64,000 nt of DNA from a virus. How positions within the stretch are numbered: the first letter of the stretch is position 1; every line of letters starts with the position of its first letter. The notes under the pieces were generated by a model. It made no database searches and was not told where the DNA came from. It saw only the letters and a program-made list of their open reading frames with translations. Below, one piece after another: positions 7,101-62,400 of this stretch. The stretch spans positions 62,001 through 126,000 of IMG/VR virus record IMGVR_UViG_3300048033_001096; one strand, 5' to 3'. A program made the translations under genes and the position numbers.

Positions 7101-10100
7101 GCTACTTGTCTATAGCCTATTTCATTTTCAAATGTAAATGTATTTGTAACTCCGTCGCCGACAAGTGGTGACATAATTGCATAAGGATTTTCAACAGTTG
7201 ATGTACCATCCCAATCATCGTCATCGATCCTAACGTTGTTTATGTAAACGTTATATTTTACACCGTTAGCTAGCGGTTTTGCTAAATCAAAAGTAAGTGT
7301 TGATCCATCAGTTTCAAAGATTTCGTCATCAAATTTGTCGTCATACACATCCCAAGTATCAGTATACCATTCTCCAGTGTCCCAACCAGGAGGTGCACCA
7401 AATTCAAAACTCTTAACTTCAACGCCACCGTAGTCGATACCGTCCATTAACTGACTAATGTCTTTACCAATTTGACCATCTTCTGGATTATAAAAAAGAT
7501 TAATTCGATCTTGTGCATCTAACAAGTTGATTGATTTTTTGTAATTAACTTCAACTATTGCTTCATTTGCTGGCGGATCGATAAATTCAATTCTTCCGTA
7601 AAATTTATCGTATTCAGCAGTATTATCAATAATATTATCATATGAATAATTACTACCCAATACTAATTCTCCATTTACAGTAACTTCAACTGTTGTAGTT
7701 CGTAAATCCATTGGCCATTTTAATTGGAACTCAGTTTTTGCTCCAGTTGCTGTAAAAAATTCAGTTTCGTTTAGTTGAGTAATAAGGAATGTTCCTGTTA
7801 CTCTATCAAATTTAACTGTAGTGTGCATATTTCTAACTGGAGAGTCGCCCAATACTACCGAAACTGCTGCTTCTCGGCCGTCTTCTCCTAATGTACCATT
7901 AATAGTAATGTTAGGAGAAGTAATATAGCCGCTGCCAGAGTCAGTAACAACAACACTATTAAGTTTTCCATTAGTGCCTAACGATGCTACTGCTGTTGCA
8001 TTCCCGTCTATTATAATTTCAGGTGCTTCAGTGTAACCGTATCCCGGATCACTAATTTTAATATCAACAACTTTGTAAGATATATTATTAAGCCATTGTT
8101 TATTAATACCTGTTAATGAGCCAGTTCCAAACAATACTCCATTTACTACTTTAGCGTCAGTTGGGGTAATTTTTGAAGTTTCTGTACTATAAACTGGCGG
8201 TGAATCAAAATCTGTTATTTCACTTGATACAGATTCAACTTTTGTGTAATTAGATATATATTCTCTAATTGTAGTTTTATATGGTTTAACTTCGTTAATA
8301 TAATCTTCGTAGCTTTCAAGATTATCGTTTTTAAATGTTATACGCTGTTGTAGATTGCCAACATTGTGTTTTGCTTTAACAAAACTTGTTTTAAATGCCC
8401 AGTCAACATAACCTTGCTCAGCAAATACATAACGCAAGCATAAGAAGAATAATGCATTAAATTGTTCTGCTAAATCTGCTACAAAAATATTATTTCTAAG
8501 AGCATTAAAAATAATACGCAATTCTGTTATAGGCTGTTTATCAAAGAATTGTGTATCAAACGTTTGATTATCAAATCCTACTAAATTATCAACATAGCTG
8601 TAAAGTGCTGTACTTAATTTAATTGTTCCATTTTGCTTACCTACTGTTTTATAATTTATAGTATAATCGGTTGTTACTTGATTATCAATTTTTTCAAGTA
8701 ATAGCCAGCCTTCGCCACCAGTATTAAGTATTTTTACAATGTCTCCAAGTTGATCGTCTAAAGACTGTAGGCTATAACTAAAATCTACCACATGATCTAA
8801 CTGTGTAAACTCGTTATAACCAGTTTCGTACCAATCTACATAATCCCAATATTGCTGTACATCGTAAGACTGCGACGATACTCGTGACCAGTTAACGCCT
8901 TGTAATTGATATATTCCCCAATTATTATTAACTGTTTCGTCTGCATTAACTAGTACTGCAAAAGGTCTTACATTAATAACTGTATTATCGTTATAATTAT
9001 ATCCTGCATTCTTTACAATTACAGAATCTACTTGCCCTAAAACATTAATAGTTAATTCTAACTCTGCTTTTGCGCCTTGGCCTGTAATTACATAAGTTGG
9101 CACTACCTTATATCCTCTACCCGGATTAGTAATGTCAACTCGTACAATTTTACCGTCTTGTACAACTGGAGTTAAAATTGCAGGCTGCGCTCTAACTGTA
9201 CTCACAAATTGCAAATCAACATAATTGTCAATAACAGTATCATATAATCCTGTATTAATAGACGGTATTTGATCACTATCTAATAACGGTGTAATATCTT
9301 TTTCATCAACTATTAGATTTTCTATAAAGATAGAATTAATTCTAGAAATTACCTGTTTTAACACTTCTTGTCTATTAATAAACCATCCCTGTCTTGGTTT
9401 ATTTAAAATACCATAACGTTCGTTTGGAGACAAGTTAGGATCTGGTACAGGTCTATCGTTAATGTCGTATCCGATAAGACTATCAATTAATTTATTAACA
9501 ATAGCTTCGTTAGGAATACTTGTTGCTAATCCTTCAGTAACAATTTGATATTGATTATGAATATTAGCATATTTGTCACCGGTTGTATAATATTGGACAC
9601 TTAATACAATATCTTTATCTCTAATTAAATCTGCGCAGTTATATAATACCATTGATGACGAATCAGCAAAGTTAATAAATTTATATTTTTGTCCTGCTGG
9701 ATCTTCAATTAATTTAGAAACGTTATCTGCAGATATTGTTCTTCCGGAAATAAGTGGAACTGTTGTTTTTCCTTTAACCCAGTAATAGTAATAATTAATA
9801 AATCTTTTAGAAATATTATCATAAACTCGTCTTATACTATATGCATCTCTACCGTATTTTGTTTTTCCAGTAATGTTATTAGCATTTCCTCTTGGAGTGC
9901 CTGATGTCGAATCCCACTCTTCTGGGCTAAGTGTACTTTCTACCCATTCGTATACATCAATCGACGCTCCTGGATACAATGTATTAAAATTATTAGATTT
10001 ATAAATTAAATTTCCTTGATATACATTGTAGAATTTAGCTGTTGACAAATCCCACCATAGTCTACCAATTTGTTCGACACCCCAGCTTCGGTTTTCGTCA

Positions 10101-34246: not shown

Positions 34247-35566
34247 ATGAAGATATCTGATATTTTTGTAGAAACAAAAAAACTTATTATTGAATCTGTA
34301 TTTGAGGTTGAAGGTGGAAGTATATTAAGCACTGGTAACCGAGCTTTGGGATATAATGTAGTAGATACTCGTTTACGTCCTAGTGATCCTAGATATATAA
34401 TTAACACTTTTGACACTGCAACAGCAGCCGCAAACTATAGTGACGAAATTAATTTAGAGTTACAAAGAAATTCAAGATTTGATCCTCGTACTGCTAGGAC
34501 TACTCCTCCTGGAGCAATTGCAACTACTGGAACTAAACCTCCACTTGAATGGGAAGATCTTAACGATGACCGAGGCAGACTACCGAGGCAATATCGTCTA
34601 GCACTTCAGAACCCTGGCTATATTACTCACGGAGGGCACAGATATACTCGCCAAGAAATAGATGCGTTTAGTCAACTAGCAACAACTCGTCGTGCGCAAA
34701 TGATGAGAGATGTTGAAGCAACTAGACCAAAACTTCTTAACATGGATGCTGAAGATGCAAAAAATCCTCGCGCCTGGGCAAATCGAAATGTTACATTTTT
34801 GAATACATTAGGAGCTAGATCTCTTGCTATGTTCTTTCCTTGGAACTTTCGTCCTGGATTGCAACTAGCAGCATACGTATCTCTTAAAGAAATGCTTATT
34901 CGTATGTATAATACTGAAATTACTGATAACACAACTCCAGCTGAAGCTCGAGAAAAAATACAAAGAGTATTTGGAATGTGGTTTGTTCTGTTTGTTGCTC
35001 CGGGATTACTTGCAACTATGACTATGGGTACTCGAGCAGCAATTGCTATATTTAGAACTATGATTAGATCTATAAACCTTGCATCAATGACTACACAACA
35101 AATAGCTAGTTTTGTAGGCGGACTACCTGGAGCAACAGTGATGTTAATTAAAAACGTAATTCAGTTTTTATTAGTTGAAGCATTACTATATACTGTTGCA
35201 AGAGCAATTTTAATGAGGCCTGAAGTTCAAGTGTTATTATTAAACGCAATGGGCAATCATTACGCAAGTAAATTAGGCGAATGGGGATTTGAAGGAGCCG
35301 AAACATTAAACACTTTTGTAACAGCACAACTTAATGCAGAAATAATTCCTACTCTAAACGCTACGTTTAGTGAAGTCGAACTTGAGGAAGTACACGGAGA
35401 CGCTATGACAAATTTGAAACTAGATCCAAATGATGCGCCAGTAGGACAACCTGAAGTAGATGACGGTAATGGTGGAACAACTCCTGAGGCTCAGCCACAG
35501 CGACAAACGCCTGACGGTCAGCCCGATCCAGATGCTAGAAGGCCTCTTAACATTGACGATCTTTAA
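34247..35566 (+). CDS. Putative membrane-associated late protein, unknown function
   Basis: I do not recognise this 439-residue protein. It has a polar N-terminal half (to about residue 170). Two long hydrophobic stretches follow: VFGMWFVLFVAPGLLATMT with following residues near 245-275, and a region near 295-330 containing VMLIKNVIQFLLVEALLYTV. The tail is acidic and Pro/Gln-rich (EAQPQRQTPDGQPDPDARRP). The late promoter and the location next to the tape-measure chaperone and tape measure suggest a virion or late protein, for example one delivered into the host membrane with the DNA. A holin-like role is also possible but the protein is large for that. Its last 4 nt overlap the end of the minus-strand gp26 extension, so the two units converge here. 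Confidence 0.8.
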   Translation: MKISDIFVETKKLIIESVFEVEGGSILSTGNRALGYNVVDTRLRPSDPRYIINTFDTATAAANYSDEINLELQRNSRFDPRTARTTPPGAIATTGTKPPLEWEDLNDDRGRLPRQYRLALQNPGYITHGGHRYTRQEIDAFSQLATTRRAQMMRDVEATRPKLLNMDAEDAKNPRAWANRNVTFLNTLGARSLAMFFPWNFRPGLQLAAYVSLKEMLIRMYNTEITDNTTPAEAREKIQRVFGMWFVLFVAPGLLATMTMGTRAAIAIFRTMIRSINLASMTTQQIASFVGGLPGATVMLIKNVIQFLLVEALLYTVARAILMRPEVQVLLLNAMGNHYASKLGEWGFEGAETLNTFVTAQLNAEIIPTLNATFSEVELEEVHGDAMTNLKLDPNDAPVGQPEVDDGNGGTTPEAQPQRQTPDGQPDPDARRPLNIDDL

Positions 35567-35796
35567 ACCATTGGCATTTTAGTGTTCTTACTAACTTCGA
35601 TGTTTTCTTGAATAATTTTTCCTAGTATTTGTAAATCTTCAACATCAGTGTCAGTAAGTAAATCTTTTGAATCTACTCCTCCTCGCATGTACCAAGAAAG
35701 TTTATAGATTTCGTGTTTAATTTGTTTGATTTCGTTTTCGTAATCGTTTGATAGATCCTGTATTTCAGAATCCGAGAGTGGGATTAGTATTTCAAG
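35563..35796 (-). CDS. gp26 C-terminal extension reached by -1 frameshift (77 residues)
   Basis: In the -1 frame relative to gp26 an open stretch runs to a TAA at 35563-35565. It encodes LEILIPLSDSEIQDLSNDYE, then a helical, charged segment with KLSWYMRGGVDSKDLLTDTD and LQILGKIIQENIEV. This frame is closed by a TAA at 35818-35820, eight codons before the slippery site. It has no ATG, GTG or TTG until a methionine 37 residues in, and no ribosome site, so independent initiation is unlikely. Read through the slip at 35796-35802, the fusion would be 353 residues (276 from gp26 plus 77). The arrangement mirrors lambda G/GT and P2 E/E' tail-assembly chaperones, which also lie next to the tape measure. 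In T4, gene 51 follows gene 26 in this position. Confidence 0.8.
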   Translation of the reverse strand, partial: LEILIPLSDSEIQDLSNDYENEIKQIKHEIYKLSWYMRGGVDSKDLLTDTDVEDLQILGKIIQENIEVSKNTKMPMV

Positions 35797-36623
35797 AAAA
35801 AACTCGAAAAATCCAAATTAGCTTTAATTTTGTTAGTAGCTTGACATTCACTACAAACTACTTCTGTAATCGGCGGTTCGAGTGCAGCAGTGTTTTTTGC
35901 ATAAACTTTTTGTATTTCATTAAAGTATACACCGTCATTATTTAAAATAAAATCGTTTATAAATTCTGAATTATTTTCAATGTCTCCGTCAGGTGTTGTT
36001 ACATCAACAACTACTTGACAAATTATAGATTTTGTTTGAGTATTAATTTGTTCGTAAAGTACATCCATAGCCTTATCTTTATCATCTTGAGACATATCTT
36101 TATTTTGTGTAATTTGCATAAGCTCTCTGCGAACTTTCATAGACACTTGCTGATTTTGTATAATTTCTTTGTATGTCAAAGGTCTAAGTCTAAACACAAA
36201 GTCATCAACACTAACATCAAAAGATAATTTTGTTTTCATAAAATGATCTAAGATTGATTGTACAGGTAATCCGTAAGTATCATCGTGAGTACAACTTGTA
36301 CATTTTGTACTCATAGTTATATTTTCACCGTATGTGGCAAGACGTATTGCAGCCATAACATATTCAAAATCGACACTAGCTAGTTTCCATGCATTTTTAA
36401 TTGCTGGAACACAACTTTCGATAACTTTTACAGTTGCATTACCTGTAATTAATGCATCAGGTGTTTTTGCAAGTATTTCGTTACTAGCAGTCATACTATA
36501 GACTTCTAGTTCTTCAAACTTTTCGACTATGTTATCATTGTACCAAACACCTTTGCTGGGTAAATCGATATATAATTTTGGTTGCCGTTTATATTTTTGT
36601 AACGGACTTGTTAAGTTTTCCAT
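35784..36623 (-). CDS. gp26: gp26 family tail/baseplate hub assembly protein
   Basis: The 279-residue product has the T4 base-plate protein (gp26) family layout: an N-terminal LYIDLPSKGVWY, then VYSMTASNEILAKTPDALIT, and a central CTSC zinc-ribbon half. The block FRLRPLTYKEIIQNQ follows, with a C-terminal CSEC that could complete a zinc site. T4 gp26 acts in baseplate hub assembly and is not abundant in virions. Here the gene stands on the minus strand, divergent from the tape-measure gene, with its own TATAAATA late promoter at 36659. A TTTTTTC slippery heptamer lies four codons before the stop (0-frame codons AGT TTT TTC), allowing a minor fusion product. The short form would then correspond to lambda gpG. 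Confidence 0.85.
   Translation of the reverse strand: MENLTSPLQKYKRQPKLYIDLPSKGVWYNDNIVEKFEELEVYSMTASNEILAKTPDALITGNATVKVIESCVPAIKNAWKLASVDFEYVMAAIRLATYGENITMSTKCTSCTHDDTYGLPVQSILDHFMKTKLSFDVSVDDFVFRLRPLTYKEIIQNQQVSMKVRRELMQITQNKDMSQDDKDKAMDVLYEQINTQTKSIICQVVVDVTTPDGDIENNSEFINDFILNNDGVYFNEIQKVYAKNTAALEPPITEVVCSECQATNKIKANLDFSSFFLKY
35796..35802 (-). promoter_or_regulatory. -1 ribosomal frameshift site T TTT TTC
   Basis: On the minus strand the gp26 codons read AGT TTT TTC TTG AAA TAC TAA. The heptamer T-TTT-TTC fits X-XXY-YYZ, so both tRNAs can re-pair one base back. Ten nt downstream, AATCC and GGATT can form a 5-bp hairpin (loop CACTCTC), a possible stimulator. The 0-frame stop follows 9 nt after the heptamer. 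Confidence 0.8.
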
Positions 36624-59428: not shown

Positions 59429-62400
59429 ATGTCAGAATTTAAAATTAGTAGATTAAGATTTAGTTGGGTAGGCGAATGGAAAGACCAGTACGTTTACAAT
59501 AAAGACGAAATTGTACAGTTTGAAGGTAAAGCGTATGTATGTTTAATACCTCATACATCAAACGGGTTTTACGCAGATTTAAGTAATATTGAACCAAAGT
59601 GGGAGTTAATGATGACTGGCCAGACTTGGAAAGGTCCTTGGCAACAGTTTACAAATTACGCTTTAGACAATATTGTAATTTTTGGTGGTGTTGTTTACAA
59701 ATGTAACGAACAGCACCTAAGTGCAAGTATTATTGATCCAGACATTGACAAGTGGGACGTTTATGCGGAGTCTAAAACTTGGAAAAGCGAATGGACATCT
59801 AATACAACATACGGTCCTGGTGATATTGTAAACTATGGCGGCTCAGCTTACGAATGTATTATTGCTCATATATCTGCAGAAACAGATCTTTTAGGGTTAG
59901 AAGCTGACTATACTGATATTGACGATAGCACAGAAAGATATTGGAAACTATCAACATACGGAGTCCAGTACAGGGGCGATTATTCTACATTTTCTGAAGA
60001 CAGTACATATATTAGATATAAGTTAAATGATGTTGTAAAATACGGGCCTAGCTTATATAAATGTATATGGGGACATTCTCCAGGCATTGCAATTGAAGAT
60101 TTTTCGACTAATATGGAAATGGCCGATTCGTTTGTTCCAGAATATTGGGAAGAATGGCTACCTGGTTTAGACTTTGATAATGTATGGGATGTTGATACTT
60201 TCTATCAACCCGGTGATGTAGTACTATACGGTGGCTACTTATTCCAGAGTAAAATTATTAATAATCTTGGAAATAAACCTTCAACTACATACGGTGAAGA
60301 TTCAACAGATGCTTGGGAAATTATATCAGAAGCATATAGTATTGACGGCGACTGGATAGTCGATTCTGAATATAAAGTAGGTAGTGTTGTTAGATACGGA
60401 GGCGACTTATATGTTGCCCTTACTGACAGTATAGGTCAAAATCCAGGAAGTTTTGAAGTAACAATACCATACGAATCGGAAGGTTCGTCGGGTAATACTA
60501 TCATTCTAAATGCTGAAGACTCTGTTCCGCTCGATGCAATTACTGTAGGTATGACAGTTACTGGTGAAGGGTTTGCTAGAGGTCAACAAGTTGAAGTAGT
60601 TGAAGTTGATGCCGAAACAAAACTAATTACAGTTACATTAAACTATCCGCCCGACGGAGCAATTAACGACGAAGCAGTTCTTACTCTAGCAGGAACAAAT
60701 TATGCATTTTGGGAATTATTAATTCCAGGATTCCAGTATGAAGGAAGATGGAGTGAAGGGCGTACATATAATGCAGATGACGTTGCATATTTTGGAAATG
60801 CAACATATAAGTGTACTAGAGAACATACATCTGCTCTTGTAAATAGACCTGATTTAGATTTACAAAATAATTATTGGATTATTTATTTACAGCACGATCA
60901 AAGAAATAGTCTTACAACTCCTGGGCAAATGATTGTTTTTGATAAAGACGACGGCAACATACCTTTAGAAATCGGCGACGAAGCATCTATTTTAAAAGTT
61001 ATTAACGGACTGCCAACTTGGAGTGATATTGACTTTACACCAAATGTTTATTATGTTGCTACGAATGGTACTGATTTACCTGATAGAGGGACAACCCCCG
61101 ATACAGCATGGGCATCGATTAAGTATGCATGTGAAATTATTAAAGAAGGTACTTTACAACAGAATGCTAAAGAATTAATTCAAAAAAACAAAGAGTGGAT
61201 TGTGCAAGAAACATTTTATTGGTTCTTGTATCAGCAAAATCAAGGTATAGCACCATTTGGTGACTCTTTTAATTTTGATAATGAAAAAGTTATAAGAGAT
61301 TCTAGACAAATTGTAGATGCAGCAGTTAAAGATCTTACACGCGGCGGCAATGCACAAACTGTTGCAGCAGCATTATCCTACTTTGATTTAGAAAGTACAA
61401 ATAGATTTACAAATGATGAAATTGCAGCACAGGCTATATATTTTAAAATATTCTTTGTAAAACTATTTGAGCATATCGAATTTGCATTAACTAATACACC
61501 TTCAGGTACTAACTATCAACAGCTAGAAGGCGACAGACTTGGCGGCGATTTAAAACCCGGAATGATTCCATTTGCTACACAATACTTTAACACAAACTTA
61601 GTGTTGGATAGTAATACTTTAACAATAGTTAGAGCATTTGAAAGAATATATGTAGAATCGTTTACACTTGGATCACCAAATACAATTCCTCCAGCTAACG
61701 AATCAGCATACTCAACAATTAACATTAAAGCAGGTACTTATTTAGAAGAATTACCGATTGTTGTTCCTTGTAACTCAGCACTAAACGGTGACGAACTGCG
61801 TGGTACAACAGTACAGCCAGCTAATCCAGTTAACACATTATGTACAAAAACAACAGGCGATATAAATTTATTTACTGTTGGATCTACTGTTAATATGGAA
61901 CATAATACTCCAGTGCAGTTTGTTTCATTAAATCCAATAAACGAAATTAGTACCATTATTGGTGATGTAATTGCCGGACAGACATATTATGTAATTGGAG
62001 ATTCAATTACGCCCACAGCATTTGCAGTTAGTGAAGAACCAGACGGTGTACCGTTTGAAATTAGAACTAACATTGGCGGAATGTATGTGTACGGCGGCAA
62101 CGCACTAAGAGATATGTTCTATGTACAAAATGCTACAGGCATACGTAATATGACTGTTAAAGGACTACGAGGAACACTAACAGTAGAAAACGAATACTTA
62201 ACAAGACGCCCAACTGGCGGAGCATATGTTAGTTTAGATCCAGGCGAAGGACCGGATGACACAACAGCTTGGATTACTTATAAATCTCCATATATTCAAA
62301 ACGTAACAACATTTGGTAAAGGCTGTGTTGGCCTTAAAATTGATAGTGATTTACATAATGGCGGTAACACTTCAGTTACATCTAATGACTTTACGCAGAT

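Follow-up and report, generated by a model that had tools for sequence, protein, structure and literature searches.

In phage lambda, tail assembly involves a short form, gpG, and a minor long form, gpGT, produced by −1 frameshifting (PMC5009743), and a 2016 review describes G-T frameshifting as widely conserved among long-tailed phages 'except T4' (PMC5009743). A review of the T4 tail lists both gp26 and gp51 among the chaperones of hub assembly (PMC3004832). Tail-assembly chaperone genes of T4-like phages (TAC-N and TAC-NC) were identified by Vladimirov, Gautam and Davidson in 2022 (Virology; cited in PMC12846349), and a 2025 paper, crediting that study (Virology 2022, 566:9-15), mentions poly-T slippery signals as already known from the TAC-N genes of T4-like phages (PMC12846349); in the TAC locus of Vandenendeviridae and Andersonviridae, the same paper reports a conserved GTTTTT signal (PMC12846349). 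Thus, going by the 2022 publication and the statement that cites it, a frameshifted chaperone is already known in T4-like phages, and the locus analyzed here is a further example rather than a new kind.

The gp26 locus and its slip site

The window, i.e. the whole 64,000-nucleotide stretch of viral DNA that was analyzed (positions 62,001 to 126,000 of IMG/VR record IMGVR_UViG_3300048033_001096), very probably carries a T4-like tail-assembly chaperone gene with a short form and a predicted frameshifted long form. The features of the locus are as follows.

35784..36623, minus strand: gp26 homologue, the short product (279 aa), assigned as tail-assembly chaperone N domain from PF12322, phrog_150, AlphaFold and BFVD
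35796..35802, minus strand: heptamer T TTT TTC, the slippery site, in the reading phase of gp26; slip site at this place in 98/98 homologous loci
35566..35796, minus strand: −1 frame extension of 77 codons, putative tail-assembly chaperone C domain, from dN/dS and conserved length and sequence
35563..35565, minus strand: TAA, stop of the −1 extension, read from the sequence
35784..35786, minus strand: TAA, 0-frame stop of gp26, 3 codons past the heptamer, read from the sequence
35818..35820, minus strand: TAA that ends the −1 frame on the upstream side, 8 codons ahead of the first shifted codon
35812..35814, minus strand: GGA located 9 nt ahead of the heptamer, which may act as a Shine-Dalgarno-like stimulator, from conserved bases and codon usage
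35769..35785, minus strand: 5-bp hairpin AATCC/GGATT, 10 nt past the heptamer, candidate stimulator, present in the sequence
35753..35773, minus strand: alternative 8-bp stem GGATTCTG/CAGGATCT, from the RNAfold minimum free energy structure in the window and in locus L006
36693..38906, plus strand: divergent neighbour of 737 aa, tape-measure candidate by position only; homologue beside gp26 in related loci

The gp26 homologue matches PF12322 (T4_baseplate; E = 2.3e-11, above the curated cut-off) and phrog_150 (E = 2.1e-12), and is the one PF12322 gene in its record (169,231 bp). Its AlphaFold model (pLDDT 89.7) matched no PDB chain at E ≤ 0.001, so that no fold link to lambda-type chaperones emerged; against BFVD, significant matches (E down to 7.8e-20) were mostly to T4-like baseplate hub proteins, among them baseplate hub assembly proteins, or to uncharacterised or unnamed proteins.

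On the minus strand, the gene ends AGT TTT TTC TTG AAA TAC TAA. An earlier note on this DNA had proposed that the heptamer T TTT TTC is a −1 slip site leading into an open frame that lacks a start of its own, and this was confirmed at the sequence level: the heptamer at 35796-35802 is in the gp26 phase, and the −1 frame, closed by the TAA at 35818-35820, continues through 77 sense codons to the TAA at 35563-35565. Because of the upstream TAA, no start further upstream is able to feed the extension, and within the −1 frame no ATG, GTG or TTG occurs until codon 36 of the extension. With the extension joined after FF, the predicted long product computes to 276 + 77 = 353 aa, as that note had stated. 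Bare TTTTTTC 7-mers are not rare in the window (21 observed vs. 31.9 expected), so that the significance of this one rests on its phase, position and conservation.

The gene was also said to face the tape measure. A divergent neighbour of 737 aa is conserved, its homologue adjoining gp26 in ~52 of the 83-84 loci that were searched. It matched no tape-measure family, has no family assignment and had no significant homology to structural proteins of RaK2, 121Q and PA5oct; it is a tape-measure candidate by its position only. Downstream of gp26, a convergent 439-aa ORF (34247-35566, plus strand) overlaps the end of the extension by 4 bp; it has no Pfam or PHROG match and has homologues in just 5 related loci.

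Conservation, selection and alternative readings

Relatives were obtained by searching viral contigs with a gp26 alignment, in the 0 frame only (593 found, 80 loci kept); a scan of viral contigs with a single gp26 sequence as query gave no matches. The kept loci, together with jumbo phages (Atu_ph07, Phosso, PA5oct, 121Q, RaK2, XacN1 and RAS14), cyanophages (Syn9, P-SSM2 and S-PM2), HTVC008M, KVP40, Cr30, phiM12 and phiW-14, make up a set of 98 loci, picked by 0-frame homology or named-phage scans and not by slip site. An in-phase slip site was found at the 3′ end of gp26 in 98 of these 98 mutually related and hence not independent loci (TTTTTTC in 93, TTTTTTT in 5), 0-12 codons before the 0-frame stop, and the −1 ORF spans 57-80 codons in every locus with an uncut contig; dereplication leaves 82 distinct extensions. 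Elsewhere in the gp26 genes of the set, FF codon pairs read TTTTTC in 8/36 cases. Heptamer and −1 ORF are conserved together throughout this set. The five TTTTTTT loci (L101, L102 (RAS14, XacN1), L109, L110 and L108) have 0 to 11 codons remaining in the 0 frame. Microcystis phage Mel-JY01, a weak match outside the 98-locus set, has a run of T where gp26 ends but lacks both an in-phase heptamer and a comparable open −1 frame.

Judging from substitution patterns, the extension is under purifying selection: dN/dS was 0.03-0.28 across the closest pairs and ~0.2 for the window vs. its relatives. The window and a further 28 loci that are not truncated have no ATG, GTG or TTG before extension codon 25; among loci of this kind, pN/pS for the first 25 extension codons was 0.41, compared to 1.39 for the other two frames of the same DNA, both values coming from the only 9 pairs close enough to use. 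The conserved in-phase site, the −1 ORF, the selection acting on it and the missing starts, along with the GGA element and subclade hairpins described below, make it very well supported, at the sequence level, that programmed −1 frameshifting yields a short and a long protein from one gene.

It is quite improbable that the extension is instead a separate small gene, with its own start or translated by reinitiation after the gp26 stop. An ATG is present at or near the extension start in 121Q, P-SSM2, KVP40, Atu_ph07 and Phosso, where reinitiation could therefore contribute, and the records of these five phages annotate the extension, or part of it, as a gene of its own, called 'gp51' in P-SSM2 and KVP40 and gene 595 in 121Q. 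However, the window and the 28 loci that lack a start before codon 25 show purifying selection there all the same, and a separate gene would not need the heptamer, which persists in all 98 loci. Slippage of RNA polymerase, rather than of the ribosome, on the T6 run (T7 in a few relatives) is less probable still, given that such a run is short for transcriptional slippage, that the final C of the heptamer is kept in 93/98 loci, and that the codon phase, upstream GGA and downstream stems are typical of ribosomal −1 shifting. That the −1 frame is a functionless remnant or a sequence error has a negligible probability: bare TTTTTTC is common in the window, but site, length and protein-level selection are conserved across ~82 distinct loci, including complete reference genomes, and this conservation led us to reject the sequence-error and chance readings.

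Under programmed ribosomal frameshifting, the majority of ribosomes would reach the gp26 stop and produce the 279-aa short form, and a minority would move back by one base at T TTT TTC, producing the 353-aa long form with the C-terminal domain. Slippage would be aided by the upstream GGA and, in some relatives, also by a downstream hairpin; its occurrence and efficiency we infer from the sequence. By analogy with lambda G/GT, from which the chaperone action, the short:long ratio and the binding to the tape measure are transferred, the short form in many copies and the long form in a few would cover the tape measure protein. These copies would bring hub or tube subunits to the tape measure and then leave, with the C domain in a presumptive recruiting role. 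In T4, both forms would be produced from two genes, 26 and 51.

In several genomes, the extension or part of it is annotated as a separate gene (L003 3828-4037; L001 3100-3222; L004 2947-3177; P-SSM2 7217-7390; KVP40 186612-186779). The labels are 'hypothetical gene' or 'gp51 baseplate hub assembly catalyst', and the public KVP40 record already remarks on the resemblance of the small gene to the gp51 C-terminus. These separate-gene annotations are probable mis-annotations: what appears in many T4-like and jumbo phages as a small 'hypothetical' or 'gp51' gene following gp26 probably encodes the C-terminal portion of a frameshifted chaperone, and such annotations call for correction.

Candidate RNA stimulators

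In most of the 98 loci, GGA-type bases occupy positions −12 to −10 before the heptamer. Where this position encodes a Leu-Asp pair, the Leu codon is G-ended in 41/49 among the cases listed, whereas the share of G-ended Leu codons in the gp26 genes of the set is 23%. This excess of G-ended Leu codons over codon usage suggests that the GGA is a Shine-Dalgarno-like element.

The 70 nt downstream of the heptamer are more stable than shuffled sequences (mean z = −1.34 ± 0.16). As a control, 45-nt windows in the gp26 interior gave z = −0.17, compared to −0.67 and −0.88 for matching 45-nt windows downstream of the site. In two subclades, stems of 9-10 bp begin a few bases past the heptamer and show compensatory changes (4 pairs each); the covariation score of both stems exceeds that of all 500 shuffles, and comparison with slid versions is inflated because these very sequences had served to derive the stems. 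Across all relatives, no single consensus hairpin was found, the stems being confined to the subclades, and no conserved downstream stem was found in the clade of the window itself.

As for the hairpin AATCC/GGATT, which the earlier note had placed 10 nt past the heptamer, it is present there but poorly conserved in relatives (compensated in L005, shortened in L006 and absent in L007). It is also mutually exclusive with the 8-bp stem GGATTCTG/CAGGATCT, which RNAfold prefers and which lies a long distance from the slip site.

Relationship to T4 gp26 and gp51 and to other systems

PF12322 matches both T4 gp26 (E = 8.8e-64) and T4 gp51 (E = 3.9e-52), the latter being ~48 aa longer at the C end. 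In cyanophages, HTVC008M, KVP40, phiM12 and Cr30, phrog_634, the family of the gp51 C-terminus, matches where gp26 ends, in a frame other than that of gp26; the match in phiW-14 is weak. A hidden Markov model of cyanophage/KVP40-type extensions matched the gp51 tails of RB49 (3.1e-9), CP220 (6e-8) and T4 (1.7e-5), and the fused product of this type aligned end to end with T4-type gp51 (hhalign, 99.2%, E = 2.8e-19). The fused window-type product, in turn, aligned over its full length with the cyanophage type (98.4%, E = 8.6e-15). The window-type extension alone gave no significant HMM match to the gp51 tail, so that its link to gp51 runs via the N domain, position and slip site. Genes 26 and 51 are separate in T4, as the earlier note had said, but they are not unrelated: from these comparisons, T4 gp26 and gp51 are paralogues that match the predicted short and long products.

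An in-phase TTTTTTC/T was absent from T4-type gp26 in all 37 two-gene contigs searched; the gene has 25 different 3′ ends among these contigs, of which one is truncated at a contig edge. In T4, gene 51 does not lie downstream of gene 26 but is oriented divergently from it. In the tree, genes 26 and 51 of T4 and RB49 fall in one clade (support 95/91) among the one-gene phages, a placement that favours a frameshifting ancestor whose gene was duplicated in the T4 lineage. Two further cases were noted. Campylobacter phage CP220 (L117 and L114) has two PF12322 genes ~9 kb apart, one short and one long with an in-frame gp51-type tail, perhaps an independent split of the pair, although the CP220 branches in the tree are too long for a firm reading. 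In IMGVR_UViG_2974754850 (L140 and L177), the alignment of a T4-type gp51 homologue covers residues 1-247, but its simple in-frame translation contains many stops, possibly due to an indel or sequence error.

The abstract of the 2022 study is said to describe frameshifting as conserved in several T4-like groups, with T4 using separate genes 26 and 51. The supposition that T4-like phages would rarely have a pair made by frameshifting does not stand: beyond the T4 group, the one-gene frameshift arrangement is the usual one (cyanophages, HTVC008M, KVP40, Cr30, phiM12 and jumbo phages), and, according to the paper that cites it, the 2022 study had already published the chaperone genes. On balance, we lean towards a scenario in which one-gene frameshifting is ancestral across T4-like and T4-related jumbo phages, maintained by RNA signals on both sides (a GGA 9 nt upstream and a clade-specific covarying hairpin downstream), and was replaced by duplication in the T4 lineage after its parting from KVP40 and cyanophages.

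Compared to T4, then, the locus shares the PF12322 domain, and the additional C-terminal tail is borne by gp51; in T4, however, there are two separate divergent genes and gp26 has no TTTTTTC/T slip site. Our results support the view that, in T4, gp26 is the short and gp51 the long tail-assembly chaperone, and the loci collected amount to a broad natural series of poly-U slip-site variants, whose candidate stimulators lend themselves to reporter work. With P2 E/E′ and the TAC locus of Vandenendeviridae and Andersonviridae, the likeness is that of a frameshift-made pair near tail genes, a comparison by arrangement and not by homology. The comparison with lambda G/GT is well supported as to the logic of a short form and a −1 frameshifted long form, here predicted from sequence, and chaperone function would follow by analogy, whereas the sequence family and the slip site differ from those of the window gp26. 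The closest counterparts are the T4-like TAC-N and TAC-NC genes of 2022 which, from the title of that study and the citing statement, belong to the same family (T4 26/51) and follow the same short/long logic; set beside them on that basis, what the window contributes is a marine lineage, together with numerous loci and candidate stimulators.
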